Positions 1,790 to 17,609 of a stretch of DNA of 30,188 nucleotides are shown here, in pieces (the stretch's first letter is position 1; every line of letters begins with the position of its first letter). Made by a program: the position numbers and the translations under genes. Below the pieces are notes generated by a model. It was not told the origin of the DNA. It did not search any database and saw only the letters and a list, made by a program, of their open reading frames with translations. Origin of the DNA: Arthrobacter sp. (lineage in GTDB: Bacteria > Actinomycetota > Actinomycetes > Actinomycetales > Micrococcaceae); assembly GCA_025464925.1 (NCBI GenBank), contig JAODMS010000057.1, forward strand, positions 1 to 30,188, written 5' to 3'.

Positions 1790-3382
1790 ATGACACTAAC
1801 GGCCCACGCACCGCTGACCGTCACTCTCGGCTCCAGCGGGGTCACGCCCGAGGACGTCGTCGCCGTCGCCCGCCACGACTCCAAGGTGGCCATCGCGCAG
1901 GACGCCCTGGATGCGGTCGCCAAGGTCCGTGCCCACATCGATGACCTCGCCCGCAGCGAGGTCCCCGCCTACGGCATTTCCACCGGGTTCGGTGCCCTCG
2001 CCAACCGGCACATCCCCAACGAGCTGCGCACCCAGCTGCAGAAGTCGCTGATCCGCAGCCACGCCGCCGGGATGGGCCCGGCGGTGGAACGCGAGGTGGT
2101 CCGCGGAATTATGTTCCTGCGCGCCAAGACCCTCGCCTCCGGCCGCACCGGGGTCCGGCCTGTGGTGCTGCAGACCCTGGTGGACGTGCTCAACGCCGGC
2201 ATCACCCCCGTGGTGCGCGAGTTCGGTTCCCTCGGCTGCTCCGGCGACCTCGCACCGTTGTCCCACTGCGCCCTGGTGCTGATGGGCGAAGGCGAAGCCC
2301 TCGGCCCCGACGGAACAATGTACGGCGCCAAGGACGGCAGGCCGGTCGCCGCGCTCCTCGCCGAGCATGGGATCGAACCCGTCACCCTCGCCGAAAAGGA
2401 GGGACTGGCGCTGGTCAACGGCACCGAGGGCATGCTGGGCATGCTGCTGATGGCCATCGCGGACATCCGGCAGCTGCTCACGACGGCGGACATCACCGCC
2501 GCGCTCAGCGTCGAGGCCCTGCTCGGCACGGACCAGGTCTTCCTGCCCGAGCTGCATGCCGCACTCCGGCCGCACCCGGGCCAGGCAGCGTCTGCTGACA
2601 ACATGCTGCGGGTGCTCTCCAACTCTCCGATTGTCGCCTCGCACCGGATCAACGACACCAAGGTCCAGGACGCCTACTCGCTGAGGTGCGCGCCGCAGGT
2701 CGCCGGCGCCGTCCGCGACACCGCGGACCACGCAGCCCTGGTCGCGTCCCGCGAGCTGGCCGCCGCGATCGACAACCCGGTCGTCCTGCCGGACGGCCGC
2801 GTCAGTTCCAACGGCAACTTCCACGGCGCCCCGGTGGCCTACGTGCTGGACTTCCTGGCGATCGCCGTCGCGGACCTGAGTTCCATCGCCGAGCGCCGGA
2901 CCGACCGGATGCTGGACCCGGCGCGCTCGCACGGGCTGCCGGCGTTCCTGGCCGCGGACCCAGGCGTCGATTCCGGCCTCATGATCGCCCAGTACACCCA
3001 GGCCGGCCTGGTCTCGGACAACAAGCGCCTCGCCGTTCCGGCGTCGGTGGACTCCATCCCGAGCTCGGCGATGCAGGAGGACCACGTCTCCATGGGCTGG
3101 CACGCGGCCCGCAAGCTCCGCCGCTCCGTGGAGAACCTGCGCCGCGTCCTGGCCATCGAACTGGTGACCTCGGCGCGGGCGCTCGACATCCGCACCCAGC
3201 TCTCCGGCGGCGAGCTTACGCCCGGGCCGGCGGGCCAAGCCGTAATTGCGGCGCTGCGCGCCGTCGTCGACGGGGCGGGAACCGACAGGTTCCTGTCACC
3301 GGAGCTGGAGGCGGCGGACCGGCTGCTCGCCTCAGGGGAGGTCAGGGCGGCGGCCGAATCCGCCGTCGGAATTCTCGCCTGA
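1790..3382 (+). CDS. hutH: Histidine ammonia-lyase (histidase)
   Basis: Removes ammonia from L-histidine to give trans-urocanate, the first step of histidine degradation. At 530 residues it is a normal length for the aromatic amino acid lyase family. The signature GSLGCSGDLAPLSH is visible, with the MIO cofactor expected to form autocatalytically from Cys150-Ser151-Gly152. Most textbook members have Ala-Ser-Gly here; I recall Cys in Streptomyces histidases but cannot check it. Other family landmarks are the N-terminal YGISTGFGALANR segment, which carries the catalytic tyrosine loop, then NGTEGML, and the QEDHVSMGWHAARKL segment near the C terminus. The start ATG follows AGGAA at 1780-1784, overlapping the hutU stop, so translation is likely coupled. 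Downstream lies a 148-base gap and a small unknown gene. Confidence 0.97.
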   Translation: MTLTAHAPLTVTLGSSGVTPEDVVAVARHDSKVAIAQDALDAVAKVRAHIDDLARSEVPAYGISTGFGALANRHIPNELRTQLQKSLIRSHAAGMGPAVEREVVRGIMFLRAKTLASGRTGVRPVVLQTLVDVLNAGITPVVREFGSLGCSGDLAPLSHCALVLMGEGEALGPDGTMYGAKDGRPVAALLAEHGIEPVTLAEKEGLALVNGTEGMLGMLLMAIADIRQLLTTADITAALSVEALLGTDQVFLPELHAALRPHPGQAASADNMLRVLSNSPIVASHRINDTKVQDAYSLRCAPQVAGAVRDTADHAALVASRELAAAIDNPVVLPDGRVSSNGNFHGAPVAYVLDFLAIAVADLSSIAERRTDRMLDPARSHGLPAFLAADPGVDSGLMIAQYTQAGLVSDNKRLAVPASVDSIPSSAMQEDHVSMGWHAARKLRRSVENLRRVLAIELVTSARALDIRTQLSGGELTPGPAGQAVIAALRAVVDGAGTDRFLSPELEAADRLLASGEVRAAAESAVGILA

Positions 3383-3530
3383 AAGGAAACAAAGTTCAGT
3401 GGCCGCCCCCATTTCGCGGCCCCTCCGAAATCTTAGCAACATGACCGTCGGGAGCCCGGAATCTGTAGTAAAAAGGGGTAACCGCACCAATGATGCTGTG
3501 GCAAAGAACCTATACAGGGGGTAAAAGTTC

Positions 3531-3767
3531 ATGAAAGCACGCGGGACAATCATTTCCAGACGCCTGGCATCCGCCGCCGCGGTTTCCGACTGGCGAAGCC
3601 TCAAGGCCGGCGATCGGGTCGAGATCGTCAAGCACGCACAGCTTCTGCTGGCCGGTGAGGTCGAAGAGGTCTCGGTGAGCGGCAACGTGCTCTGGCTGGT
3701 CGCTGCGGACCCGTCGGAGACACAGCTCTTTTTAAAGTCCGACGGCGTCCAGGTGCGGCGCCGCTAG
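3531..3767 (+). CDS. Small hypothetical protein, possible SH3-like barrel
   Basis: A 78-residue protein that I do not recognise. The ATG at 3531 is preceded by a G-run (3517-3521) at good spacing. Residues 1-20 are basic and Ala/Ser-rich. Residues 20-78 read as alternating short beta strands with turns (LKAGDRVEIV, LLAGEVEEVS, NVLWLVAAD, LFLKSDGVQVRR), the pattern of a small SH3-like or KOW-like barrel; this fold is an inference. There is no signal peptide or membrane segment. It lies 148 bases after hutH and is closed off by the strong terminator at 3818-3885, so it could be the last gene of the hut transcript or have its own promoter. No function can be assigned. Confidence 0.7.
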   Translation: MKARGTIISRRLASAAAVSDWRSLKAGDRVEIVKHAQLLLAGEVEEVSVSGNVLWLVAADPSETQLFLKSDGVQVRRR

Positions 3768-3817
3768 CGCTTTTTTGACGGCCGGTCCACCGGCGTCGGA
3801 GTGAAGAGGCACCGCAG

Positions 3818-3885
3818 AAGTCCCCGTCCCCCGGGCCGGTCTCCGCATCGAGCAGGGACCGGCCCGGGCGGGCGGGGACTTTTTT
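3818..3885 (+). terminator. Strong intrinsic terminator ending the hut-side transcript
   Basis: A long GC-rich hairpin with a T-tract. The outer arm 3818-3826 pairs perfectly over 9 bp with 3873-3881, and the inner arm 3830-3841 pairs perfectly over 12 bp with 3857-3868. A small internal loop separates them and the apical loop is 15 nt. Six T residues (3880-3885) follow the stem. It separates the hutUH/small-gene transcript from the Ter locus. Confidence 0.9.
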
Positions 3886-4100
3886 GCGGTCTGGGACGTT
3901 GAACAAGTGAGCACATTGCCCGGCGCCAACTGAGGCGGATTGTCGCGTCGTAGCTGCAAGGTGGCGGGTTATCAGGCTAGAGAGGGCCGTACCCTGCGGG
4001 TATGATAATTGCACGAAGTCTTGGGGGATAACTTCCGGGATGTTTTCGCCGTCGTGGCCGTTGATTGGCCGGGACCCGTAGTTCCAGGAGTTGTTCCAGC
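3886..4100 (+). promoter_or_regulatory. Promoter and leader region of the Ter operon
   Basis: There is no gene in this stretch, which together with the terminator forms the 333-base gap before the TerC gene. A good -10 candidate is TATGAT at 4001-4006 (the overlapping GATAAT at 4004-4009 is an alternative). A weaker -35, TAGAGA at 3978-3983, lies 17 bases upstream. A perfect 5-bp inverted repeat, TACCC/GGGTA (3990-3994 and 3998-4002), overlaps the -10 edge and could be part of an operator. Transcription from here would give a leader of roughly 85-90 nt before the GTG at 4101. I see no consensus yybP-ykoY manganese riboswitch in the leader. Confidence 0.5.
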
Positions 4101-5213
4101 GTGTTTTTGAAGACTTTCGGCTGGTCGTTCGCGATCACCATTATTTCATTGGTCATCGCCTTCCTCTATGGCGGTCCGCAGGCGCTGATCCTCTGCGTGA
4201 TCCTGGGCATCCTGGAAGTCAGCCTGAGCTTCGACAACGCCGTCGTCAATGCGCGCATCCTGGAGCGCATGAACCCCTTCTGGCAAAAGATGTTCCTGAG
4301 CGTGGGCATCATCATCGCGGTCTTCGGGATGCGCATCGTGTTCCCGCTGCTGATCGTCGGCGTCACAGCCAAACTGAACCCCGTCGAGGCTGTCACCCTG
4401 GCCCTGGAAAAGGGCGATCCCCACACCCCCGGCAGCTACGGCTACCTGCTGCACGAGGCGCATCCCCAGATTGCGGCCTTCGGCGGCATGTTCCTCCTGA
4501 TGCTGTTCCTGGACTTCATCCTCGCCCACCGGGACATCAAATGGATCAAGTTCCTCGAGATTCCGCTGGCCAAGCTCGGCAAGCTCGAGGGTGCCTCCTT
4601 GATCATCGGTATGGCAGCACTGGCCACCGCCGGCGCAGTGGCCGGTGAAAAGCAGGGTATCGTGCTGCTTTCCGGCCTGCTGGGCATGATCACCTACTTC
4701 CTCGTCAACGGCCTCGGAAACCTCTTCGACGTCGACGGGGACGGTGACATCGACGCGGCGGACGCGGACCTCGTCCTCCACTCCGGCCCCTCCGAGCCGG
4801 CGAAACTGGCCGGCAAGGCCGCCTTCATGCTCTTCCTGTACCTTGAAGTCATCGACGCCTCCTTCTCCTTCGATGGCGTCATCGGAGCCTTCGCCATTAC
4901 CTCGGACCCGATCATCATTGCCCTCGGACTGGGCTTCATCGGTGCCATGTTCGTCCGCTCCCTCACCGTCTTCCTGGTCCGGGAGGGGACGCTGGACGAA
5001 TTCGAATACCTTGATCACGGCGCACACTGGGCCATCGGGGCCTTGGCAGTCATCCTGCTGATCACCATCGTGTTCCCGATCAACGAGATCATTACCGGCC
5101 TTATCGGCGTCGTGTTCATCGGAGCCGCCTTTACGGGGTCCATCCTGCGCAACAAGCGGGCCAGGGCCGCAGGGCAGGATGCCTCACTGGAATCGGCAAC
5201 CGCAAAAAGCTAA
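4101..5213 (+). CDS. TerC/DUF475-type integral membrane protein
   Basis: A polytopic membrane protein of 370 residues from the GTG at 4101. That start has AGGAG at 4086-4090 and places the protein start at VFLKTFGWSF, the usual DUF475 start; an in-frame TTG at 4065 lacks support. Both TerC hallmark repeats are present: EVSLSFDNAVVNA with Asp45 in the second helix, and EVIDASFSFDGVIGA with Asp258. About eight to nine hydrophobic helices are visible. TerC proteins are implicated in metal-ion (Mn2+) efflux and as membrane anchors for TerD proteins. Unusually, the loop before the second repeat contains a 12-residue EF-hand/dockerin-like calcium loop at 210-221 (Asp at positions 1, 3, 5, 9 and 12, Gly at 6, Ile at 8). 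It is the first gene of the Ter operon; the TerD genes follow after 54 bases. Confidence 0.93.
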   Translation: MFLKTFGWSFAITIISLVIAFLYGGPQALILCVILGILEVSLSFDNAVVNARILERMNPFWQKMFLSVGIIIAVFGMRIVFPLLIVGVTAKLNPVEAVTLALEKGDPHTPGSYGYLLHEAHPQIAAFGGMFLLMLFLDFILAHRDIKWIKFLEIPLAKLGKLEGASLIIGMAALATAGAVAGEKQGIVLLSGLLGMITYFLVNGLGNLFDVDGDGDIDAADADLVLHSGPSEPAKLAGKAAFMLFLYLEVIDASFSFDGVIGAFAITSDPIIIALGLGFIGAMFVRSLTVFLVREGTLDEFEYLDHGAHWAIGALAVILLITIVFPINEIITGLIGVVFIGAAFTGSILRNKRARAAGQDASLESATAKS

Positions 5214-5267
5214 CTGCAGCAGTCGAATACACAGCACAACCACTACTACGAAAAGCGGGTAATTCAC

Positions 5268-5858
5268 ATGGGTTTGAGTCTGCAAAAGGGCCAGTCACTG
5301 TCGCTGACGAAGCAGAACGGTGAGTCTTTGACCAACGTCCGGATGGGCCTCGGCTGGGACTCAGCGGCGCCCGCCAAGAAGGGATTCTTCGGCGGCTCCA
5401 AGACTGTGGAGGTCGACCTGGATGCTTCGGCCCTCCTGTTCGACGGTCAGGGGAACCACCTGGACTCGGTCTTCTTCAACCAGCTCACCAGCAAGGACGG
5501 TTCCGTCCGCCACACCGGCGACAACCTCACCGGCGCCGGCGACGGCGACGACGAGACCCTGATGGTGAACCTGCCGAGCGTTTCCCCCGCGATCCAGCAC
5601 ATCGTCTTCGTGATCACCAGCTACAGCCAGCAGACCTTTGACATGGTCCAGAATGCCTTCTGCCGCGTCATCGACGACTCGGTTGCCGGCAGCCCCGAAG
5701 TCGCCCGCTACCAGCTCACCGAGTCGGGCAAAAACACGGCTATGGTGATGGCCAAGCTCTCCCGGAGCGGGAACGGCTGGACGTTCCAGGCCATCGGCGC
5801 ACCGGCCAACGGCCGCACGGCAGGCGATGTCCGCGGCGCGGCGGCTGCGGCACTGTAG
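5268..5858 (+). CDS. TerD-family protein, TerX/TerZ-like
   Basis: A cytoplasmic 196-residue protein of the TerD/CABP beta-sandwich family, which binds calcium. It starts with the family N-terminal SLQKGQSLSLTK and GLGWD segments, then DLDASAL at 50-56. The calcium-binding stretch is intact: DGSV at 77-80, GDNLTG at 84-89 and GDGDDE at 91-96. Compared with the next two paralogues it carries an extra glycine-rich insert (KKGFFGGS, residues 37-44), a QTFDMVQNAFCRV segment and a different C-terminal end, all features I associate with TerX/TerZ of the enterobacterial tellurite operon. The ribosome binding site is weak (GCGGG near 5256). Probably a structural partner of the other TerD proteins and of TerC. 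Confidence 0.92.
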   Translation: MGLSLQKGQSLSLTKQNGESLTNVRMGLGWDSAAPAKKGFFGGSKTVEVDLDASALLFDGQGNHLDSVFFNQLTSKDGSVRHTGDNLTGAGDGDDETLMVNLPSVSPAIQHIVFVITSYSQQTFDMVQNAFCRVIDDSVAGSPEVARYQLTESGKNTAMVMAKLSRSGNGWTFQAIGAPANGRTAGDVRGAAAAAL

Positions 5859-5896
5859 CGTCTGACTTATCTTCACTTCTCACCGAAGGAGTAAAC

Positions 5897-6478
5897 GTGT
5901 CTAGCCTGACTCTGAGCAAGGGCAGCAATTTGTCCCTGACGAAAGCCGATCCCGGGCTGCGCAAGGCGATCATCGGTCTGGGCTGGGATCCGCGGACAAC
6001 CGCAGGAGAGCAGTTCGACCTGGACGCCTCCGCGCTGCTGGTCCGGGCTGACGGCAAGGTCCGCTCGAACGACGACTTCATTTTCTACAACCAGTTGTCG
6101 TCGCCCGACGGTTCGGTGGTGCACCAGGGCGACAACCGCACCGGCGTGGGCGAAGGGGACGACGAGCAGATCCTGATTGATCTCGACGCCGTTGCTTCGG
6201 ACATTCAGAAGATCGTCATCGTCGTGTCGATCGACCAGGCCGACGGCCGCCGCCAGAACTTCGGACAGGTGCGCGACGCCTTCTGCCGGGTGGTGAACCA
6301 GGAGACCGATTCCGAAGTGGTCCGCTATGATCTCACCGAGGACGCGGCAGCAGAAACATGCATGATCTTCGCGGAGATCTACCGCAACAACGGAGAGTGG
6401 AAGTTCCGTGCCGTCGGCCAGGGGTACGCCTCCGGTTTGCACGGCGTTGCGACGGACTTCGGCATAGCACTGAGCTAG
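5897..6478 (+). CDS. terD: TerD-family calcium-binding stress protein (canonical)
   Basis: A 193-residue canonical TerD. The GTG start at 5897 has AAGGAG at 5886-5891. Motifs run in order: SLTKADPGL, GLGWDPRT (27-34), FDLDASALL (40-48), DFIFYNQ (60-66), DGSV (71-74), then the full calcium site GDNRTG (78-83) with GEGDDE (85-90), RRQNFGQV, and the C-terminal NNGEWKFRAVGQGY. The family confers tolerance to tellurite, oxidants, phage and colicins in several bacteria and is proposed to form calcium-dependent membrane-linked assemblies with TerC. It is very similar to the next gene, so the pair arose by a fairly recent tandem duplication. Confidence 0.96.
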   Translation: MSSLTLSKGSNLSLTKADPGLRKAIIGLGWDPRTTAGEQFDLDASALLVRADGKVRSNDDFIFYNQLSSPDGSVVHQGDNRTGVGEGDDEQILIDLDAVASDIQKIVIVVSIDQADGRRQNFGQVRDAFCRVVNQETDSEVVRYDLTEDAAAETCMIFAEIYRNNGEWKFRAVGQGYASGLHGVATDFGIALS

Positions 6479-6483
6479 AAGCC

Positions 6484-6509
6484 GGGCGGGCCGCGACCCC
6501 GGGCCGCCC
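6484..6509 (+). other. GC hairpin between two terD copies
   Basis: Arms GGGCGG (6484-6489) and CCGCCC (6504-6509) can pair in the 67-base gap between the second and third TerD genes. There is no T-run, so a terminator is unlikely; an mRNA-stability or processing element is possible. The gap also contains the AAGGAG ribosome binding site of the next gene. Confidence 0.35.
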
Positions 6510-6545
6510 ACCACAACTTCACCAGACTGAACAAGGAGAACCACC

Positions 6546-7127
6546 ATGGCTGGCCTGACTCTTACCAAAGGCAGTAACCTCTCGCTCACCAAGACCGATC
6601 CGGGACTGAACAAGGTCCTCGTCGGGCTGGGCTGGGATCCTCGTACGACAACCGGCGACGCCTTTGATCTGGACGCATCGGCGCTCCTGCTGGGCGCCGA
6701 CGGAAAGGTCCGTAGCTCGGCGGACTTCATCTTCTACAACCAGCCGGCCGCAGCTGACGGCTCGGTGACACACAAGGGTGACAACCGCTCCGGTGACGGC
6801 GCCGGCGATGACGAAGTGATCGCCGTCGAACTGTCGGCTGTGGGTGCGGATGTCCAGCGCATCGTCTTTGTGGTCTCGATCGACCAGGCAGAGGCGCGCC
6901 GCCAGAATTTCGGCCAGGTGCGCGGCGCCTATTGCCGCGTCGTCAACCAGGAGACCGAGGCCGAGGTAGTGCGCTACGACCTCAGTGAGGACGCGGCTCC
7001 GGAGACCTGCATGATCTTCTCGGAGCTCTACCGGAACAACGGTGAGTGGAAGTTCAAGGCAGTCGGCCAGGGATACGCCACGGGGCTCGCGGGGATCGCC
7101 GCGGACTTCGGCGTCCAGCTCGACTAA
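6546..7127 (+). CDS. terD: TerD-family calcium-binding stress protein (canonical)
   Basis: A 193-residue TerD paralogue, collinear with the preceding gene along its whole length without obvious gaps. The calcium-binding region is intact (DGSV 71-74, GDNRSG 78-83, GAGDDE 85-90), as are FDLDASALL, DFIFYNQ, the RRQNFGQV segment and the C-terminal NNGEWKFKAVGQGY. AAGGAG a few bases before the ATG fixes the start. It lies 67 bases after its twin and 30 bases before telA. Having two near-identical copies suggests either dosage or the building of hetero-oligomers. Canonical TerD proteins are soluble and bind two Ca2+ per domain in solved structures; the same is expected here. Confidence 0.96.
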   Translation: MAGLTLTKGSNLSLTKTDPGLNKVLVGLGWDPRTTTGDAFDLDASALLLGADGKVRSSADFIFYNQPAAADGSVTHKGDNRSGDGAGDDEVIAVELSAVGADVQRIVFVVSIDQAEARRQNFGQVRGAYCRVVNQETEAEVVRYDLSEDAAPETCMIFSELYRNNGEWKFKAVGQGYATGLAGIAADFGVQLD

Positions 7128-7157
7128 CACCGGAGACAAGAGAAAGAGAGACGCACC

Positions 7158-8354
7158 ATGAGCATGCAAGTCACTCCGCCGGACACCTCGGCGTCCGCGC
7201 CGCTTGTCCTGAACGCTCCTGAGGCCCTGGATATCGTCAAGGTGGACGAGGCTCCGGGCATGGTCCCGGTTCCGGCTGATCGCCAGCAGGAGATCAACGC
7301 CCAGGCGCGCGCTTTCGTCAGCGAAGTCGCTGCGATGAACCCGCACAGACCCGAATTCACGAGCAAGATCGATGGCATCAACCGCTTGGCGGGACAGCAG
7401 CTTGTCTCCTCTTCCAACACCTCAAGCCGGCTGCTGGAGCGATCTTCAACGTCGCTGGCGGGCGCGAAAAAGTCGGGCGACAGTGCCCAGGTGAAGGTCG
7501 CGTCCACGCTCGGTGAACTTCGTTCCACCGTGGAGGACCTCACCCCGAACGCGGCCGACCTCAGTGTGGGGCGAAAGATCCTGGGCATTATTCCGGGCGG
7601 CAACAAACTCGCCAAGTACTTCCAGAAATATGAGTCAGCCCAGACCCAGCTGGACAAGATCATCAAGTCCCTGATGGCGGGGCAGGACGAACTGCTCAAG
7701 GACAATGCCGCCCTCGCGCAGGAAAAGACCCAGCTGTGGGAGACCATGCAGGAGCTGAGCGAGTACGCGGTCTTCGCCAAGGCCCTCGATGGCGCCACGG
7801 CAGCCAGGATCGACGAGATGAAGATGTCGGGCCAGGTCGAAAACGCCAACAAACTCGATGCAGATGTGCTGTTCCCCATCCGTCAGCGCCACCAGGACAT
7901 CCTGACGCAGCTGGCGGTCTCGGTGCAGGGCTATCTGGCCATCGACCTGATCCGCAAGAACAACACCGAGCTGATCAAGGGCGTCGAACGGGCACGCACC
8001 ACGACGATCTCCGCCCTCCGGACGGCCGTCATAGTGGCCCAGGCGCTGGCCAACCAGAAGATGGTGCTGGACCAGATCGACGCCATCAACACGACGACCA
8101 ACAACATGATCCTGAAGACTTCCGAGATGCTCAAGGACCAGACCGGCCGCATCCACCAGCAGGCGGCCAGTTCCGGCGTCAGCGTTGAAACGCTGCAGAA
8201 GGCGTTCGATAACGTCTTCCAGACGATGGATGCGATCGACACGTTCCGCTCGCAGGCCAACAAGAACATGGAAGGTACCGTTCACGCCCTCGAAGCGGGA
8301 CTGGAACGGGCCCGTCCCTACCTGGACCGCGCGCGCCAGCAGGAGGGGAATTAG
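7158..8354 (+). CDS. telA: TelA-family toxic anion resistance protein
   Basis: A 398-residue, largely alpha-helical protein of the TelA family (PF05816), linked to tolerance of tellurite and other toxic anions and of some cell-envelope antimicrobials. Residues 1-45 are low-complexity and probably flexible; the rest is long amphipathic helices suggesting coiled coils. Segments typical of the family include the SVGRKILGIIPGGNKL region near residues 138-153, LFPIRQRHQDILTQLAVSVQGYLAIDLIRKNN, and TTISALRTAVIVAQALANQK followed by Thr/Asn-rich helices. It starts at ATG 7158 after an AG-rich ribosome binding site (GAGACAAGAGAAAGAGAG). The mechanism of TelA is unknown; cytoplasmic location is inferred from the lack of a signal peptide or membrane segment. 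Confidence 0.95.
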   Translation: MSMQVTPPDTSASAPLVLNAPEALDIVKVDEAPGMVPVPADRQQEINAQARAFVSEVAAMNPHRPEFTSKIDGINRLAGQQLVSSSNTSSRLLERSSTSLAGAKKSGDSAQVKVASTLGELRSTVEDLTPNAADLSVGRKILGIIPGGNKLAKYFQKYESAQTQLDKIIKSLMAGQDELLKDNAALAQEKTQLWETMQELSEYAVFAKALDGATAARIDEMKMSGQVENANKLDADVLFPIRQRHQDILTQLAVSVQGYLAIDLIRKNNTELIKGVERARTTTISALRTAVIVAQALANQKMVLDQIDAINTTTNNMILKTSEMLKDQTGRIHQQAASSGVSVETLQKAFDNVFQTMDAIDTFRSQANKNMEGTVHALEAGLERARPYLDRARQQEGN

Positions 8355-8388
8355 CGGCCGCCAGCCCTGAGCAATAGGCTTATGGGCT

Positions 8389-8898
8389 ATGGTCGCAAAA
8401 TTCTTTGGTTCGTTGTTCGGCAGGGGATCGGATTCCCCCTCCGCAGCCGAACAGCCGCCTGCCGCCGATCCTGCGGGGGACGAGCTGGCGGTTACAGCGA
8501 CCGCGCTCGAGGAACTTCGAGGGACGGCACTGGGCAGGGGTGCGGAACTGCCCACCGTCGTGGTATCCCAGATCCTGCAGCTGGTCGACGTCCTCCGTGC
8601 GTTGATCCGCTACATCGAGCGGTCCGGAGCGTCTACCGAGCAGGGCGTGCTCCTGAACGCGGTCATCACCGACTACCTGCCGTCTCCGCTGCGCGCCTAC
8701 TTGATGCTGGGGCCATCCTCACGGACAGACGAATCCGCACAGACCACGGCGTTGCTGGAGCAGCTGGGCACCCTCTATTCCACCGTGCAGAACCTGGACA
8801 ACCAGGTCCGCACCGGGGCCATTACGGAGCTGGCCGTCCATGGCCAGTTCCTCAAGGACAAGTTTGATATTGATGGCCTCCACCTGGAAGGACGCTAG
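8389..8898 (+). CDS. Hypothetical helical protein paired with TelA
   Basis: A 169-residue protein with no firm family assignment. Residues 1-35 are an FGSLFGRG-type basic/aromatic start plus an Ala/Pro-rich linker; residues 36-165 are predicted mostly helical. The central DYLPSPLRAYLML segment, followed by two long helices ending in FLKDKFDIDG, is reminiscent of the YLP-x-x-L-x-x-Y pattern of XpaC-type proteins that neighbour telA in Firmicutes; this is an inference from pattern only. The chosen ATG at 8389 gives weak ribosome-binding-site support. It begins 34 bases after telA and its stop overlaps the next start by one base (TAGTG at 8896-8900), so it is an integral operon member. Confidence 0.8.
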   Translation: MVAKFFGSLFGRGSDSPSAAEQPPAADPAGDELAVTATALEELRGTALGRGAELPTVVVSQILQLVDVLRALIRYIERSGASTEQGVLLNAVITDYLPSPLRAYLMLGPSSRTDESAQTTALLEQLGTLYSTVQNLDNQVRTGAITELAVHGQFLKDKFDIDGLHLEGR

Positions 8899-9449
8899 TG
8901 ACTTCGATGGTTGCGGGCAGCAATGCCGCCCTCACTGCAGAGAACCCCGGCCTTGGCACCGTGCTGCTGGGGATCGGCTGGGACACGGTGCCCAGCCGCG
9001 GTCCGCAGGCCGAACTGGTCCCGATGGTCATTATGTGCGGGCAGGACGGACGCGCCCTCTCGGATGATCACCTCGTGTTCTTCAACCAGATCGCCAGCCC
9101 CGACGGCAGCGTCGCGTTCGCCGGAACCGAAGACCAGGAACAGGTCGACGTCGTTCTCAACCGGGTGCCCGATGCCGTCAGCAAGATCGTGGTGCTGCTC
9201 TATGTCGACCCGGACGTGCGGGGTCCCGGAACCTTCGGGGCCGTTCGGAACACCTACCTGCGGGTCGCCGATGAGGGGAACCGGGAGCTGCTCCGCTTCA
9301 ACGTTCCGCCGGGGAACATGGACAAGATCAACGCCATGATTCTCGGGGAGCTGTACCGGCACGCCGGGGGCTGGAAGTTCCGTGCCCTCGGGCAGGGTTA
9401 CGAGACCGGGCTGGCAGCCGTTGCCGCAGACTTCAACTTGAAGCTCTGA
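8898..9449 (+). CDS. Diverged TerD-family protein lacking the calcium site
   Basis: A 183-residue protein clearly homologous to TerD: GIGWD (25-29), HLVFFNQ (58-64), SPDGSV (67-72), FGAVRNTYLRV, and the C-terminal LYRHAGGWKFRALGQGYETGLAAVAADF. However, the DLDASA strand is replaced by ELVPMVIM (39-46), and the calcium-binding GDN-x-TG-x-G-x-GDDE stretch is absent, leaving a short AGTEDQEQ (75-82). It is therefore probably unable to bind calcium as the canonical copies do and may act as a structural or regulatory subunit. Its GTG start overlaps the previous stop codon by one base, implying translational coupling, and the next gene starts one base after its stop. Confidence 0.93.
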   Translation: MTSMVAGSNAALTAENPGLGTVLLGIGWDTVPSRGPQAELVPMVIMCGQDGRALSDDHLVFFNQIASPDGSVAFAGTEDQEQVDVVLNRVPDAVSKIVVLLYVDPDVRGPGTFGAVRNTYLRVADEGNRELLRFNVPPGNMDKINAMILGELYRHAGGWKFRALGQGYETGLAAVAADFNLKL

Positions 9450-9450
9450 C

Positions 9451-10245
9451 ATGGCCGGGAACCGAAGCACCCTCCGGACCGACCTCGACTACCTCAGCCG
9501 CCGGACGAAACCCGCGCAGCGGCCGGAATCGACGCCGCCTGCCGGTGCGGTCCGGGCGCCGAACCTTCCGACGCCGGACCATGCTACGCCGGGTTCCGGC
9601 GGGTTGACCCTCCACCCCGCCTCTTCCCGTCCAGACCCGGTGCCCCAGGGCTCGACGACGCGTTCCCCGACGGTTTTTGCTCCCTCGTCGCGGTCTGCCC
9701 CGGCGTCCGCGCGCACGGCTGCGGTTCCGGAGCGCGTGTTCCCGGCTCCGGGCTTCGGGAGCGTCCGCCAGTTGGACGAAGCGAACCCTGTGGTGCGCCT
9801 GAACGCGAGACAATCCGCCATTGGCTCCCTTCTGGTGGCAGGCGCCCGCTCGGTCACCTGGGAGGACAGGCACTTCACAACAGGCGCCCGCCATGCGGAA
9901 GGGCACGTCGCGGGAACCCCGGTCAACACCCCCGGGAACCGGCCATTGGCCGACATGCAGGACTCGTCCGGGGTGGTGTCCCTGCGGCACGTCCGGCTGC
10001 TCCGCCGCGCGCTGTTCATCGCCGGGGAGGCGCCGCTGACGATCGGGGTCTTCGACGGCGCCGCGGCCGTGGTGGCCCCCCGGAACGACGCCGGTTCGCG
10101 GGCCGTGCTGTACGTGTCACGGATCGGGGCGGTCCTCGAGCTGCGCGCCGAGTTTGTCCCGGCAGCTGCCGACGACCCGGCCGTGTGGGCCCTGTTTGGG
10201 TTCACGATGACCATTCCGCTGGACCAACGGGTCCTCCTGCGCTAG
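9451..10245 (+). CDS. Hypothetical protein of Ter operon, disordered N terminus plus beta-rich domain
   Basis: A 264-residue protein not assignable to a family by eye. Residues 1-100 are rich in Pro, Ser, Arg and Ala and look disordered (MAGNRSTLRTDLDYLSRR start). Residues 105-264 form a compact domain with alternating strands (VRLNARQSAIGSLLVAG, VTWEDRHFTTG, VVSLRHVRLLRRALFIAG, LYVSRIGAVLELRAEF, WALFGFTMTIPLDQRVLLR). The strand pattern could be a beta-sandwich distantly like TerD, but no TerD motif is present. It starts one base after the stop of the diverged TerD gene and is followed by the lyase gene after 35 bases. It sits exactly between the structural TerD/TelA block and the biosynthetic block, so it may link the two. 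No signal peptide or membrane helix. Confidence 0.82.
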   Translation: MAGNRSTLRTDLDYLSRRTKPAQRPESTPPAGAVRAPNLPTPDHATPGSGGLTLHPASSRPDPVPQGSTTRSPTVFAPSSRSAPASARTAAVPERVFPAPGFGSVRQLDEANPVVRLNARQSAIGSLLVAGARSVTWEDRHFTTGARHAEGHVAGTPVNTPGNRPLADMQDSSGVVSLRHVRLLRRALFIAGEAPLTIGVFDGAAAVVAPRNDAGSRAVLYVSRIGAVLELRAEFVPAAADDPAVWALFGFTMTIPLDQRVLLR

Positions 10246-10280
10246 TCCGGCATCACACCGCAGCTATCACCTAGGGGAAT

Positions 10281-11465
10281 ATGCAGCACTTCAAAGCCTT
10301 GGCCGAATCCGTTCAGGAGCGCTTGTTCCACGTCCGGCCCGAGGTGCTTCACCGCGCCTCCGACCCGGGACTGCTGGCGGTGGCGTTGGGCGCGACCCTG
10401 TACTCTCCGGCGACCCGGCCCGCTCTCGCTCAGGACATCCGGAAGCAAGCCAGATCCGGGTGCCTGAGCACCGTTATTTGCCTTGAGGACGCCGTGCCGG
10501 ACGACGGGGTGCCCGCGGCAGAGGAGAACCTGCTCAAAGCCCTGGCGGAACTCCATGCCCTCAACGAGCCGGCTGAACTGCCGCTGATTTTCATCCGGTG
10601 CCGCACCCCGGAACAGATTCTCGACGTCGGACGCCGGGCCGGTGCTGCCCTGGGGGTCGTCTATGGCTTCGTCCTGCCAAAATTCGAGAATGAGACCGGG
10701 CGGGGCCGCGCCTTTCTGGAGGCGTTGCAGCTGTTGAACGAGGAGTGCGGCCGCACCGGTGATCCGGATGCGCAGGCGCTGCGGGTCATGCCGATCATCG
10801 AGGACCCCGTTACGACGCATCTGGAGTCGCGCGTCCGGGTCCTGACGGACAACCTGGCCCTGATCAACGAGTTCCGCGAGCTGGTCCTGTGTGTCCGGAT
10901 CGGTGCAACGGACATGTCCAGCGCCTTCGGGCTGCGGCGTTCCCGCGACCTGACCATCTATAACGTCAAGGTCGTGGCCAACGTCATCGGCGATGTCGTC
11001 AATATCTTCGGCCGCCCGGGCGACGGCTGGATCATTTCCGGCCCCGTCTGGGAGCACTTCACCAACACGGAACGGGTGCTGCGGCCCCAGCTGCGGTCCA
11101 CGCCTTTTGAAGCCGTCAACGAAGGTAAGCTCCGCCAGCGGATCCTGATGGACAACCTGGACGGCCTCATCCGGGAGATCGAGCTGGACCAGGCCAACGG
11201 CCTGCTCGGCAAGACCGTGATCCACCCCAGCCATGTGCCAGTCGTGCATGCCATGTCCGTGGTGAGCCATGAGGAATACCTCGACGCGCTGGACATCGCC
11301 GGGGACCCGGGAGGCGGCGTCAAGGCGTCGTCGTACGGCAACAAGATGAATGAACTGAAGCCGCACCGGGCCTGGGCGGAGCGCACGCTGCTGCGGGCCC
11401 GGGCCTTCGGGGTCGCCAGGCCCGGCGTCAACTTTGTCGAACTCCTGGAAGCGGGCATGCGTTGA
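10281..11465 (+). CDS. HpcH/HpaI aldolase / CitE-like C-C bond lyase of Ter biosynthetic module
   Basis: A 394-residue TIM-barrel enzyme of the HpcH/HpaI-CitE superfamily, in the subgroup found with Ter genes. Visible landmarks are ICLEDAVPDD near the N terminus, LIFIRCRTPEQ, GFVLPKFENETG with the likely metal-binding Glu, RVMPIIEDP, the LCVRIGATDMSSAFGLRR active-site loop, and GKTVIHPSHVPVVHAM near the C terminus. Homologues cleave or form C-C bonds in (thio)esters or oxo acids; the substrate here is unknown. In proposed Ter pathways it works with PRTase, StiP and HAD enzymes to make a nucleoside-like metabolite. The ATG at 10281 follows TAGGGGA at 10272-10278. The next gene's TTG start overlaps its stop (TTGA), indicating coupling. 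Confidence 0.92.
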   Translation: MQHFKALAESVQERLFHVRPEVLHRASDPGLLAVALGATLYSPATRPALAQDIRKQARSGCLSTVICLEDAVPDDGVPAAEENLLKALAELHALNEPAELPLIFIRCRTPEQILDVGRRAGAALGVVYGFVLPKFENETGRGRAFLEALQLLNEECGRTGDPDAQALRVMPIIEDPVTTHLESRVRVLTDNLALINEFRELVLCVRIGATDMSSAFGLRRSRDLTIYNVKVVANVIGDVVNIFGRPGDGWIISGPVWEHFTNTERVLRPQLRSTPFEAVNEGKLRQRILMDNLDGLIREIELDQANGLLGKTVIHPSHVPVVHAMSVVSHEEYLDALDIAGDPGGGVKASSYGNKMNELKPHRAWAERTLLRARAFGVARPGVNFVELLEAGMR

Positions 11466-14104
11466 GGGCCGTCCAGGCGGACGTTCCGTGGAGCGGTGCG
11501 TATGTGCGGGACGTCCTCGGCGTGGAGCTGGCCTCCGCCGCGGAACGCAGCGTCCTGCCGGTCGAGTCCCTGGTAGGCCTGGCGCTCCGGCGGAATCCGA
11601 AGCGGGCCCACCTGCTGGTGTCCCGGGTCCTCGCCAAGCACGTACCCACCGAACCGGGGATCGCGACCTCGGCCGGGCTGCTGCTTGGCCTCCTGGTCCG
11701 CGAGGAACTTCAGGCCCCGGAGGTGGAGGCCGCCGCGGCGTGCCCGGTCCCGCCACTCGGTGCGCTCATCGACGAGGCCGCGGGAAAGCTTGAATGGCTC
11801 CTGGCCTCGGACCCGGCCGAGAACGGACCTTCTGCAACTGCGGGCCCGGAGACGCGGCGGGCCCGCATGTCTGCGGTGGCTGACCTTTGCAGACTGCTCG
11901 AAGGGCGGCAAACCGACCTTCCCGGCGTCGTGACCATCGGCTACGCGGAAACCGCCACCGGGCTGGGGCAGCTCGTGGCCGGACAACTGGGAACCTACTA
12001 CATCCACTCCACGCGGGAGGCCGCGGGCGCCGCCGGGGTGGCGCCGTATGGCGCCTTCGAAGAGACCCATTCCCATGCCACCTCGCATCAGCTGCTGCCG
12101 ACGAGCCGTGCCGCACTGGACCTGGCCGACACGGTGGTCCTGGTGGACGATGAGCTCAGTACTGGCGCCACGATCATCAACACCATCCGCGAACTCCATG
12201 GCACCGCGCCGCACGGCCGCTACGTCGTCGCGTCCCTGGTTGACCTCCGTTCCGCGGAAGACCATGGCCGGCTTGATGCCCTCGCCGCAGAACTCGGCAC
12301 CCGGATCAGCGCTGTGGCGCTGGCGCACGGAAGTATCCGGCTGCCGGAGCTGCTCGCCTTCGAGGCGGCGGAACTGATCCGCGGCCTCCCGCCCGGCGAC
12401 CAGGCGGGACCAACCCCGGGGCAGATCCAGCTGGTGGACCTGAACGAGGTCGTGCCGCCGGTCCGGAGCGCCCGATTCGGAATCGGAGGACGGCCCGACC
12501 CGCGGCAGGCGGACGGGATCGCCGCAGCCCTCGCGGCGTCCCTCAGCGCCGGAATGGCGCCGGGCGACCGCGTCCTGGTGCTGGCTACCGAGGAATTCAT
12601 GGCCCTCCCGTTGGCCGTCGCAACCCGGCTGCAGGAACTGTGGCCTGACAACGACGTCCGTTATTCGACGAGTACGCGCTCTCCGATCGCGGCTCTGGAT
12701 GAGCCGGGCTACGCCGTCCGATCCGCCGTCGCCTTCAGCAGCGGCGACGACGCCCCGGACGGGCCCGGTCCCCGGTTTGCCTACAACTTCGCGCACCCCG
12801 AAGGGCGGTTCGACACCGTTGTGCTTCTGGCGGAACCCGGAACTCCGGCCTCCCAGCTGGCGGCCCCCGGCAAGATCGCGGAGGCCGTTGCGGGCAGCGG
12901 CGCCGCCGTCCGGCTTGTGCTGCTTCCCCGGCAGGGGCCGTTCCCCCCGCCTCTCGCCGGCCCCTCGTTCGGCTCCTACGCTGCTGAGGACGTGCGGTGG
13001 CTGCTGAAGGACCTCAGCTTCGCGCAGCTGGAGGCCCCGAGTGCCGAACGCGAAGCGTCGATCCAATCCGGCAAGGCCAGCTATGCCGAATCGCTGCCGC
13101 AGGAATATGAGCCCTCTCCCGAGTACGGCGCCCTCTTCCAGGCCGCGCTCGGCAGCTCAGCGGCTCGGATAGCGCACGCCGTCGGCACCCTCACGGAACA
13201 GGTCCTGAAGCTCCGACAGAACGCCCCCGTGCTGGTTTCACTCGCGCGGGCCGGAACGCCGGTCGGGATCCTTATGAAGCGATGGGCCAAGGAAGTCCAT
13301 GGCCTGGACCTGCCGCACTATGCCATCAGCATCGTGCGCGGACTCGGCATCGACCAGGCAGCGCTCGGCTACCTCGCCTCACAGCACGACCCTGAACAGA
13401 TCATGTTCGTTGACGGCTGGACGGGGAAAGGCGCGATCACCCGCGAGCTCGCGGCCGCCGTCGAGCTCTTCCGGAAGACCGACGGCGCGGCTTTCCGGCC
13501 GGACCTGGCCGTCCTTGCGGATCCGGGACACTGCGTGCGAATCTTCGGCACGAGGGAGGATTACCTGGTTCCCTCTGCCTGCCTGAATTCCACCGTCTCC
13601 GGCCTTGTTTCACGCACCGTCTTTAACAAGAAGCTGATCGGACCCGGCGATTTCCACGGCGCCAAGTATTACTCGGAATTGAGTCGTAGCGACGTTTCCA
13701 ACGGTTTCCTGGCCGCCGTCACGGCGGAGTTCCCCGCTGTGCGGGCCGGGGTCCTGGCCGCCGCGGCTTCCTTCCCCGTTGAGATTGAGGCGTTCCCGGC
13801 GGCAAACTGGTCGGGATGGTCCGCGGTAGAGGCCATCAGCCGCGATTTCGGCATCAACAACCTGAACCTGGTGAAGCCCGGAGTCGGCGAGACCACCCGG
13901 GTCCTGCTGCGGCGCGTGCCCTGGAAGATCCTTGTCCATCCGGCCGCGTTCGACGACATTGCGCATGTGCTGCACCTGGCCGAACAGCGCGGAGTCGAAG
14001 TGCTGGAAGTCCCGGGCCTGCCGTACAGCTGCGTCGGCCTCATCCATCCGCTCCACACCCCGGGCGCGACAGGCGCCGACGGCAAGGCGGTGGTCGACGT
14101 ATGA
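11462..14104 (+). CDS. Fused PRTase_2-TRSP-StiP-PELOTA protein of Ter biosynthetic module
   Basis: An 880-residue multidomain protein. Residues 1-300 are an orotate-PRTase-like domain (PRTase_2) with the PRPP loop TVVLVDDELSTGAT at about 224-237. Residues 330-490 are the TRSP domain, with the literal TRSP motif at 405-408. Residues 505-790 match StiP/PRTase_1: SYAAEDVRWLLKDL, IQSGKASYAESLPQEYEP, LVSLARAGTPVGILMKR, and a second PRPP-loop-like FVDGWTGKGAI near 648. Residues 800-875 match PELOTA_1, a putative RNA-binding-like domain (INNLNLVKPGVGETTRVLL, VPWKILVHP). In many genomes, as I recall, the PRTase_2-TRSP and StiP-PELOTA halves are separate genes. The TTG at 11462 overlaps the lyase stop by four bases and has GGAAG about 10 bases upstream. 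The last four bases overlap the HAD start (ATGA). Confidence 0.93.
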   Translation: MRAVQADVPWSGAYVRDVLGVELASAAERSVLPVESLVGLALRRNPKRAHLLVSRVLAKHVPTEPGIATSAGLLLGLLVREELQAPEVEAAAACPVPPLGALIDEAAGKLEWLLASDPAENGPSATAGPETRRARMSAVADLCRLLEGRQTDLPGVVTIGYAETATGLGQLVAGQLGTYYIHSTREAAGAAGVAPYGAFEETHSHATSHQLLPTSRAALDLADTVVLVDDELSTGATIINTIRELHGTAPHGRYVVASLVDLRSAEDHGRLDALAAELGTRISAVALAHGSIRLPELLAFEAAELIRGLPPGDQAGPTPGQIQLVDLNEVVPPVRSARFGIGGRPDPRQADGIAAALAASLSAGMAPGDRVLVLATEEFMALPLAVATRLQELWPDNDVRYSTSTRSPIAALDEPGYAVRSAVAFSSGDDAPDGPGPRFAYNFAHPEGRFDTVVLLAEPGTPASQLAAPGKIAEAVAGSGAAVRLVLLPRQGPFPPPLAGPSFGSYAAEDVRWLLKDLSFAQLEAPSAEREASIQSGKASYAESLPQEYEPSPEYGALFQAALGSSAARIAHAVGTLTEQVLKLRQNAPVLVSLARAGTPVGILMKRWAKEVHGLDLPHYAISIVRGLGIDQAALGYLASQHDPEQIMFVDGWTGKGAITRELAAAVELFRKTDGAAFRPDLAVLADPGHCVRIFGTREDYLVPSACLNSTVSGLVSRTVFNKKLIGPGDFHGAKYYSELSRSDVSNGFLAAVTAEFPAVRAGVLAAAASFPVEIEAFPAANWSGWSAVEAISRDFGINNLNLVKPGVGETTRVLLRRVPWKILVHPAAFDDIAHVLHLAEQRGVEVLEVPGLPYSCVGLIHPLHTPGATGADGKAVVDV

Positions 14105-14991
14105 GGACTGAGCCCGGCGACGCCCCGGTCCTGGTGGCCAGTGACCTGGACCGGACCCTGATCTACTCGGCGAACTCCATCTCGCTGCAGGGAAGCGACC
14201 ATTTGGCGCCCCGGATGGTGGTCTCCGAGGTCTACGATGCGGCTCCGCTGTCCTACATGACACGGGCAGCAGAGGACCTGCTGGCGCGCCTTGGGGAGCG
14301 GAGCGTCTTCGTCCCGGTGACCACCCGGACGCAGGCCCAGTTCGCCCGGGTGCAGCTGCCGGGGCTGGGGCGGGGATACGCCGTGACGACCAACGGGGCC
14401 GCGCTGCTGCACGACGGGGAACCTGACCTTGACTGGTCGCGCCACATCCGGCGCTCGCTGGCAGGCCGTTGTGCACCCCTGGGCGAGGTGCTCGGCCACC
14501 TCACCGGAAGCGCGGCCGTTCCCGAGATCCTGCGGGTGCGCACGGCCGAAGACGTCTTCGTGTATTCGATCGTGAACCGGGAGGAGCTCTCCGACAGCTA
14601 CCTCCAGGAGCTGACGGCCTGGTGCCTTGAGCGCGGCTGGACCACTTCCCTGCAGGGCCGGAAGCTGTACTGTGTGCCGGCCCCGGTCACCAAGGAGGCC
14701 GCGGTCGCGGAAGTCCGGCGGCGGAGCGGTGCCGGCCTGCTCGTTGCCGCTGGCGACTCGCGGCTGGATGCGGGCCTCCTCGAGTTCGCGGACATCTCGA
14801 TCCGTCCCGCGCACGGAGAGCTGCACAGCGATGGCTTCGCCCGGGCGAATCTGACGGTGACCTCGGCAGCAGGGGTGCTGGCCGGGGAGGAAATCCTGCG
14901 GTTCATGAACAGCGTCGTGGCGCGGGTCTCGGCCTCGGGGCGGCTTGCGGAGCTGCGGACCAAGGATCCGGCTACCCCAGCAGCGTATTGA
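14101..14991 (+). CDS. HAD-family hydrolase of Ter biosynthetic module
   Basis: A 296-residue HAD phosphatase of the Cof/sucrose-phosphatase-like type. Motif I is SDLDRT with nucleophile Asp15 and acid/base Asp17; motif II is the VPVTTRT threonine region; motif IV is AAGDSRLDAGLL. The cap lies between motifs II and IV. It probably removes a phosphate from the product of the upstream PRTase-type enzymes. The ATG start overlaps the TGA of the previous gene (ATGA at 14101-14104), so it is translationally coupled and is the last gene of the Ter transcript. Its final 20 bases overlap the 3' end of the convergent hutG, and no intrinsic terminator is visible there. Confidence 0.92.
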   Translation: MRTEPGDAPVLVASDLDRTLIYSANSISLQGSDHLAPRMVVSEVYDAAPLSYMTRAAEDLLARLGERSVFVPVTTRTQAQFARVQLPGLGRGYAVTTNGAALLHDGEPDLDWSRHIRRSLAGRCAPLGEVLGHLTGSAAVPEILRVRTAEDVFVYSIVNREELSDSYLQELTAWCLERGWTTSLQGRKLYCVPAPVTKEAAVAEVRRRSGAGLLVAAGDSRLDAGLLEFADISIRPAHGELHSDGFARANLTVTSAAGVLAGEEILRFMNSVVARVSASGRLAELRTKDPATPAAY

Positions 14992-15958
14992 CCAGCCGCG
15001 CGGCCACCTTGGCCGTGCGGCCGTCGATGTCGAACTCCGGGTTCAGCTCCGCAACATCCAGGTGCAGCAGCTTGCCGCTGGCCGCCACCTGGCGGCACAC
15101 CGCGCTGACCACCGGCAGCGACACACCGTACGCCGCGGGTGCGCTCACCCCCGGGGCAGCCGAGGCCGGCAGCACGTCCAGATCCACGGTCAGGTACAAC
15201 GCGTCCACCTGCGCCAGGAAGGCCGCCACAAACGCGTGCACCGCCTGCGCCGAGCAGTCCTCGTCCAGCAAGTAGTCCACGTCCAGTTCCTGGGCCGCGC
15301 GGAACAGCGCCCGGGTGTTGTTCGGCTCGGAGATCCCGACGACGGCGTATTGCAGTTTCCGGCCGGCGGCGGCTTCCGCGCGAGCCATCTGCAGGAACGG
15401 GGTGCCGGAACTGGGCACAGGTTCATCGCGGAGGTCGAAATGGGCGTCCAGGTTAAGCACGCCCACCCGCAGGCCCTCCCGGACCGCCGACGAGCCGGCA
15501 ATGCCCAGGTAGCTGGCAAAGGCGGTCTCGTGGCCGCCACCCAGCACCACGGGCAATCGGCCGGCGTCGAGCAGCCTGGTGATGGCCAGCCCGGCGCGTG
15601 CCTGGGCCGCCTCCAGGGACTGTCCCGCCACGGTGATGTCGCCGGCGTCGTGCACGTCCCGGCGGAGGTGGAAGGCCAGGGGAGCAAGGGCGTTGCGGAT
15701 CGCCGCGGGGCCGGCCGCGGAGCCCGCACGGCCCTTGTTGCGGCGCACGCCTTCGTCGCTGCAGAAGCCCAGAAGGACGGCCGGGCGGGTGCCGTACGCG
15801 GCGGAAGCCGGTGCGGCCGCTATGGCCGGAGGAGTCCGGGGGGCATACGGGGTGACAGCCTGCCACCAGCGCCGGTGCTCGGCGCCCTCGCCGTCAAAAC
15901 GCCCGCTCCAGGGTTGCGGCGGGACAACAACGGTGGATGCGGGAGTAGCCATGGTCAT
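14972..15958 (-). CDS. hutG: Formimidoylglutamase
   Basis: A 328-residue ureohydrolase (arginase/agmatinase fold) that hydrolyses N-formimidoyl-L-glutamate to glutamate and formamide, the last step of one histidine-degradation route. The binuclear-manganese motifs are intact: GGGHE at 140-144, NLDAHFDLR with DAHFD at 171-175, and VDLDVLP at 258-264. The N-terminal PQPWSGRFDGEG and GFCSDEGVRRNKGR segments are typical of HutG rather than arginase or agmatinase. The start ATG is at 15958; an in-frame Met two codons later is an alternative. It is transcribed opposite to hutUH, 11 kb away, and may share a transcript with the upstream permease gene (98-base gap, same strand). Confidence 0.96.
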   Translation of the reverse strand: MTMATPASTVVVPPQPWSGRFDGEGAEHRRWWQAVTPYAPRTPPAIAAAPASAAYGTRPAVLLGFCSDEGVRRNKGRAGSAAGPAAIRNALAPLAFHLRRDVHDAGDITVAGQSLEAAQARAGLAITRLLDAGRLPVVLGGGHETAFASYLGIAGSSAVREGLRVGVLNLDAHFDLRDEPVPSSGTPFLQMARAEAAAGRKLQYAVVGISEPNNTRALFRAAQELDVDYLLDEDCSAQAVHAFVAAFLAQVDALYLTVDLDVLPASAAPGVSAPAAYGVSLPVVSAVCRQVAASGKLLHLDVAELNPEFDIDGRTAKVAARLVNTLLG

Positions 15959-17499: not shown

Positions 17500-17609
17500 T
17501 TGTCCTCCGGGAGAGATGGGTGTCCCCTAAATCCTATTGGGCGCCGCCACGGTATACGGGCGCTTTCGCCTAGTCTGTAAGGAAGCCAACACAAAGGAGT
17601 AGTCCGTCC

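Follow-up and report, generated by a model that had tools for sequence, protein, structure and literature searches.

A Micrococcaceae gene cluster joining TerC, TerD and TelA to enzymes of a proposed Ter-dependent stress-response system

What Ter systems do remains a matter of debate. A gene cluster of Arthrobacter sp. places Ter proteins beside a set of enzymes that probably make a nucleoside-like small molecule. The cluster lies at positions 4101–14991 of a 30,188-nucleotide stretch of DNA (GenBank assembly GCA_025464925.1, contig JAODMS010000057.1), the whole of which we call the window. Anantharaman, Iyer and Aravind (2012, Mol Biosyst 8:3142) are said to have proposed Ter-dependent stress response systems with a nucleoside-like metabolite, a module of which a C-C lyase and a PELOTA domain are reportedly also part. 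Because actinobacterial Ter loci of such a kind were proposed in 2012, the idea is not new. According to the excerpted text of a 2021 article (PMC7824862), phosphoribosyltransferases (PRTases) and haloacid dehalogenase (HAD) enzymes of Ter systems make a nucleoside or nucleotide derivative as a signal, TerB and TerD possibly sense that signal, and TerC and TelA act at the membrane; a 2020 article (PMC7159879), likewise excerpted, states that TerD might recognize nucleotide derivatives, and both cite the 2012 proposal. The original prediction for this locus had drawn the same link, which our analysis supports: on sequence evidence, the locus is a real, conserved Micrococcaceae version of this known, proposed system.

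A conserved pairing of Ter and enzyme genes

The predicted run of eleven same-strand genes with named domains was confirmed by open reading frames (ORFs), Pfam and NCBIfam. Eleven consecutive genes lie on the plus strand in the order TerC-TerD1-TerD2-TerD3-TelA-UnkA-TerD4-UnkB-lyase-fusion-HAD (Table 1).

Table 1. Features of the locus and its upstream region (window coordinates)
Feature	Position	Strand	Basis and remarks
Very strong, terminator-like hairpin	3810..3891	none	Fold of 3805-3892: -73 kcal/mol, z -8.9
Possible sigma-70-like promoter, TAGAGA-17-TATGAT	3978..4006	+	Promoter scan; adjoins 5' side of leader
Structured terC leader	4009..4106	+	Fold, alignment; only in close relatives
TerC-superfamily (DUF475) membrane protein	4101..5213	+	Pfam (on 4065-5213), NCBIfam; GTG start
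TerD1, acidic loop GDNLTGAGDGDDE	5268..5858	+	Pfam, motif
TerD2, acidic loop GDNRTGVGEGDDE	5897..6478	+	Pfam, motif, solved TerD structures
TerD3, acidic loop GDNRSGDGAGDDE	6546..7127	+	Pfam, motif
TelA	7158..8354	+	Pfam, 285.8 bits
UnkA, 169 amino acids	8389..8898	+	Without family; 30/65 loci
TerD4, without acidic loop	8898..9449	+	Pfam, motif
UnkB, low-confidence N-terminal tail (~100 residues) and predicted TerD-fold domain (~residues 104-250)	9451..10245	+	Predicted structure
CitE-like TIM-barrel C-C bond lyase (PF15617, C-C_Bond_Lyase)	10281..11465	+	Pfam, 367 bits; motifs
Fusion PRTase_2 - TRSP - StiP (PRTase-like) - PELOTA_1, 880 amino acids	11462..14104	+	Pfam, motifs, predicted structure; TTG start
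HAD-type phosphatase	14101..14991	+	Weak NCBIfam match, motifs

We compared 65 loci, picked for sufficiently long contigs and not at random, from relatives centred on Arthrobacter sp. H16F315 (genome G003, locus L003). They comprise the window, L001–L004 and 25 further family loci (L064–L088), together a family set of 30, and 35 loci from the class; the 69 StiP matches in the class divide into G003, these 35 and 33 left out, including one below cut-off. StiP (PF11202) occurs in 26 of 197 family genomes and, over cut-off, in 68 of 296 class genomes, and the cluster is found in named Arthrobacter and Pseudarthrobacter strains. The lyase, PRTase_2-TRSP and StiP-PELOTA are present in all 65 loci and the HAD gene in 64. 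Within the family set, the full TerC-to-HAD order is unbroken in 21 loci, counting TerC of at least 95% length and the fusion whole or as two halves. The order is also unbroken in two loci that have only a terC remnant before an otherwise complete cluster (L001, 3905–4204; L072, 1310–1705). TelA is parted from UnkA by 1.3–3.5 kb in six (L065–L069 and L076), whose stretches begin inside or after terC, which was not judged there; in L075 the contig ends 3.9 kb ahead of UnkA, with no TelA in between.

The predicted pairing of Ter and enzyme genes is likewise supported. TerD (PF02342) occurs in 77 of the 296 class genomes, among them all 68 that carry StiP (kinship ignored), and in each of the nine genomes with TerD but no StiP, TerD is present once. 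UnkA and UnkB are found in 30 of the 65 loci, namely the window and 29 other Micrococcaceae loci.

The enzyme core and its candidate receptors

The prediction had read the third part of the fusion simply as StiP, a domain that matches PF11202 with 338.9 bits. We reread it as probably a second PRTase-like domain: its predicted fold is PRTase-like with motifs of the phosphoribosyl pyrophosphate (PRPP) type, and the fusion may therefore hold two PRTases. TRSP was considered as a third, decayed PRTase and rejected: its motif order looked similar, but 72 of 100 column shuffles reached its hhalign score, which fell under their mean. For the HAD gene, Pfam returned nothing at E≤10; it matches the HAD-IIB MPGP family of NCBIfam weakly (E 2.8e-4), and HAD-type motifs are kept in 64 loci.

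Two proteins had been listed as unknown, and both UnkA and UnkB indeed lack a Pfam match at E≤10; UnkB is corrected here to a probable TerD fold. Structure prediction gives UnkB a TerD fold, so that it is probably a TerD-fold protein and a hidden fifth sensor copy; we liken it to that fold and do not file it as a family member, because sequence matches to TerD are absent. No PDB sequence matched it at E≤10. The acidic loop GDNxxGxGxGDDE, carried by TerD1–TerD3, is missing both from UnkB and from TerD4, the TerD that adjoins the enzymes, in the latter case in 30 of 30 family loci. A common origin of TerD4 and the other TerDs that lack the loop and adjoin the lyase is tentatively disfavored: a tree uniting the 49 rows is rejected by the approximately unbiased test (p-AU 1.2e-4), but the group was drawn by position and long branches were flagged. 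The loop undergoes at least four changes on that tree.

UnkA has database relatives in Arthrobacter-like bacteria, Sinomonas, one Herbiconiux and one unplaced actinomycete bin. TelA and XpaC are neighbors elsewhere. UnkA was not upheld as an XpaC/Halogen_Hydrol relative: for none of 46 members was PF10112 listed as a match at E≤10, and PF10112 is over cut-off in none of 148 class genomes, which hence offered no good XpaC profile for the comparison.

We lean, with slightly better than even confidence, towards a mechanism in which a Ter sensing block works with enzymes that make a nucleoside-like signal or protectant. TerC, TerD and TelA would read membrane or metal stress, the lyase would supply or trim a small carbon unit, PRTase_2 and StiP would join a base-like moiety to PRPP, and the HAD enzyme would remove a phosphate to yield the nucleoside-like product. 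TerD4 and UnkB, loop-less and encoded beside the enzymes, would be the likely receivers of the product, and PELOTA may serve to anchor the enzyme on RNA. A stronger form of this proposal, which we offer tentatively and consider more probably wrong than right, is that TerD4 and UnkB are a dedicated receptor pair binding the product beside three TerDs of the calcium type, while the leader hairpin would keep terC silent until the system is needed. If so, the locus would encode both the enzymes that make a signal and the proteins that receive it. Because the locus is compact, occurs in named strains and has its enzymes adjoining two candidate receptors, the nucleoside proposal is directly testable here.

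Several results weigh against the nucleoside mechanism. Our literature search, in the portions of papers it covered, found no report of the proposed nucleoside-like product. The co-occurrence of StiP and TerD (Fisher 1.5e-57) ignores kinship, its counts being uncorrected for relatedness. Sequence kinship between StiP and PRTase_2 was rejected, because 26 of 100 shuffles scored as high in one profile comparison and another was also weak; only the predicted fold speaks for it. A nearly invariant StiP stretch, SACLNSTVSGLxSRTV, is unexplained (predicted local distance difference test score, pLDDT, below 50 at 705–717). UnkB gave nothing at E≤0.001 in Foldseek, and as a TerD by sequence it was rejected, since 82 of 100 shuffles reached its hhalign score, which fell under their mean. 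Finally, no convincing ATPgrasp_Ter, an accessory partner, was seen in the relatives. The ATPgrasp_Ter profile matches 48 of 48 relatives, of which 15 pass cut-off by 0 to 0.6 bits, 10 of these belonging to the 29 family genomes. Matches in the family cover about 55–65 of 131 positions, mostly in frames of more than 1,000 amino acids (CarB-like in our reading), and 13 of 14 control genomes match too. PRTase_3 (PF15610) was found in 0 of 48, but the control gave no match either, so that this count carries no information.

A different chemistry, in which the core works on RNA, with PELOTA docking a structured RNA, the PRTases exchanging or adding a base and no free nucleoside signal arising, strikes us as unlikely. 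It draws on the PELOTA domain itself, which is present in 65 of 65 loci, has a nearly invariant core (KPGVGEtTRVLLRRvPW) and is joined to StiP in every one. The PRPP-type motifs, however, suggest that the phosphoribosyl donor is free, both the lyase and the HAD phosphatase suit small-molecule chemistry, and no RNA target is known.

One unit or two

The prediction also held that sensing and synthesis genes are made together, citing tight overlaps from 8389 to 14991. TAGTG (UnkA/TerD4, -1), TTGA (lyase/fusion, -4) and ATGA (fusion/HAD, -4) are all present, and TerD4/UnkB is +1, but the run is broken by 35 bases between UnkB and lyase. Other junctions are also looser: 34 bases between TelA and UnkA and 30–67 bases in the first block. 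A single transcript across the window locus is plausible and fits this spacing. The nearest relatives L001–L004 share flanks with the window, with hutH in four of four and an arginase gene in three of four (L002 has none in the 4.3 kb after HAD). The genome G110 has the same eleven genes and the leader between unrelated flanks, where 0 of 7 window flank proteins match over 3.4 kb upstream and 5.5 kb downstream. Because G110 keeps the stretch between other flanks, leader to HAD acts as a unit in the window's clade. None of these seven proteins was found in L064–L088, which extend no more than about 1.1 kb ahead of terC.

The opposing reading, that a metal or calcium homeostasis block (TerC-TerD-TelA) merely adjoins a separate metabolic block as an independent unit, is in our judgment distinctly unlikely, although co-production does not hold everywhere. 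Five of the six gapped loci, and thus five of 30 in the family (L065, L066, L068, L069 and L076), have opposite-strand ORFs between TelA and UnkA, one in each beginning MPKSRTRKPKNTRP; simple gene calling found no opposite-strand ORF in the L067 gap. These five loci show that a separate start is possible for the second block. In 24 of 35 class loci outside the family, a TerD on the opposite strand is situated within 2 kb of the lyase start, so that a single transcript is not general. Eight of the 65 loci (L115–L122) even have neither TerD nor TerC in the stretch compared, yet in seven TerD lies 13.9–16.9 kb away on the same contig (G237, G287, G299, G310, G331, G432 and G482), and the contig carrying the eighth (G216) is 13.4 kb long. 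Against independence also stand the presence of TerD in every StiP genome, the single TerD of each TerD-only genome, and TerD4, which each of the 30 family loci has inside its enzyme block.

Two further readings concern individual proteins. Pfam describes PF11202 as a cysteine protease, and StiP has one Cys that is invariant in 65 of 65 loci, as well as conserved His residues; that the locus acts via regulated proteolysis is nevertheless very unlikely in our view, StiP being PRTase-like in predicted fold, and the database name may mislead annotation. A mainly TerC-centred metal supply or export system, whose enzymes make a metal-binding small molecule, is the most improbable reading: TerC proteins MeeF and MeeY aid manganese metalation of membrane and extracellular enzymes in Bacillus (excerpts of PMC12096827) and terC of Klebsiella plays a part in resistance to tellurite and to zinc (excerpts of PMC12054061), but the enzyme core holds no pointer to a chelator and such a role for the DUF475 branch is a candidate one.

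A predicted leader hairpin may hide the terC ribosome-binding site. In the fold of 4009–4110 (-39.7 kcal/mol, z -2.5; 5 of 200 shuffles equally good), GGGGGATAACTTCC pairs with the arm holding the terC Shine-Dalgarno (about 4086–4090). The alignment of the window and four relatives has 30 consensus pairs, two with change on both sides; this covariation is suggestive, supporting a structure while falling short of proof. The L003 leader folded alone has a different lowest-energy structure. The leader is also present in L002, L003, L004, L082 and G505. A pattern of its exact type matched none of 120 family genomes, but this test has little power, since it missed the variant leaders of G003 and G110 too. 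A covariance model matched four of 295 family genomes, G003, G110 and G505 strongly and in single copy and G007 weakly (E 0.0024). G003 and G110 were part of the model, and the G505 leader, before terC, looks the same as that of G003; we therefore dropped the leader as a wider element. Rfam called only two tRNAs and no known riboswitch in the window at gathering thresholds; below them it gave chance-like matches to the terminator hairpin only, leaving the leader without an Rfam family. Sigma-70-like sites in 3300–15300, both strands counted, number two (one being that at 3978–4006) against a mean of 1.1 in shuffles, which is near chance.

Flanking features and known systems

Several observations concern the first gene and the flanks. 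On 4065–5213, Pfam gives DUF475 410 bits and TerC 61.3 bits (cut-off 27.8), and the terC start is most likely the GTG at 4101. The DUF475 protein has an EF-hand-like acidic loop, DVDGDGDIDAAD (4728–4763); we rejected it as a general feature, the pattern occurring in 8 of 45 full-length TerCs, all eight in the family (8 of 21). The terminator-like hairpin separates the locus from upstream hutU, hutH and a 78-amino-acid ORF (3531–3767), which is 78–83% identical in L001–L004 and for which Pfam and NCBIfam searches gave nothing worth naming. L004 has more than 1 kb extra between this ORF and the terC leader (~1200–2350), absent from the window, L002 and L003. Downstream, a 506-amino-acid ORF (16060–17580) without a Pfam match adjoins a CopC-domain gene and is 66–79% identical in L001, L003 and L004. 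ARAGORN called a tRNA-Glu inside hutU (629–712, minus strand) that Rfam did not call and that is probably false. Ten proteins, namely the 78-amino-acid ORF and all of the eleven except TerD2 and TerD3, yielded no anti-phage system with the PADLOC-DB 2.0.0 models, with weak matches only (E 0.0081, 0.029 and 0.065).

Our literature search found no paper combining TerD, StiP and PELOTA, and none since 2020 combining TerD, phage defense and tellurite resistance; in the portions of papers it covered, UnkA, UnkB, the loop-less TerD4 and the leader were not found in print. Among solved structures, TerD2 is close in sequence to 3ibz from Streptomyces coelicolor (E 1.7e-77) and 2kxt from Klebsiella (E 6.5e-76), the latter calcium-binding according to the structure title. 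UnkB resembles solved TerD structures in its predicted fold, although it and TerD4 differ from them in lacking the GDNxxGxGxGDDE loop. The enterobacterial tellurite operon (terXYW, terZABCDEF) has the TerC and TerD families in common with the window, whereas no TerB, TerF or TerY-type domain was found by Pfam in the 30 window frames. There is also a likeness to the 2012 Ter systems, with which the window shares TerC, TerD, TelA, PRTases and a HAD enzyme; unlike them, it adds UnkA and UnkB, has a loop-less TerD4, and carries PRTase, TRSP, StiP and PELOTA as one protein.
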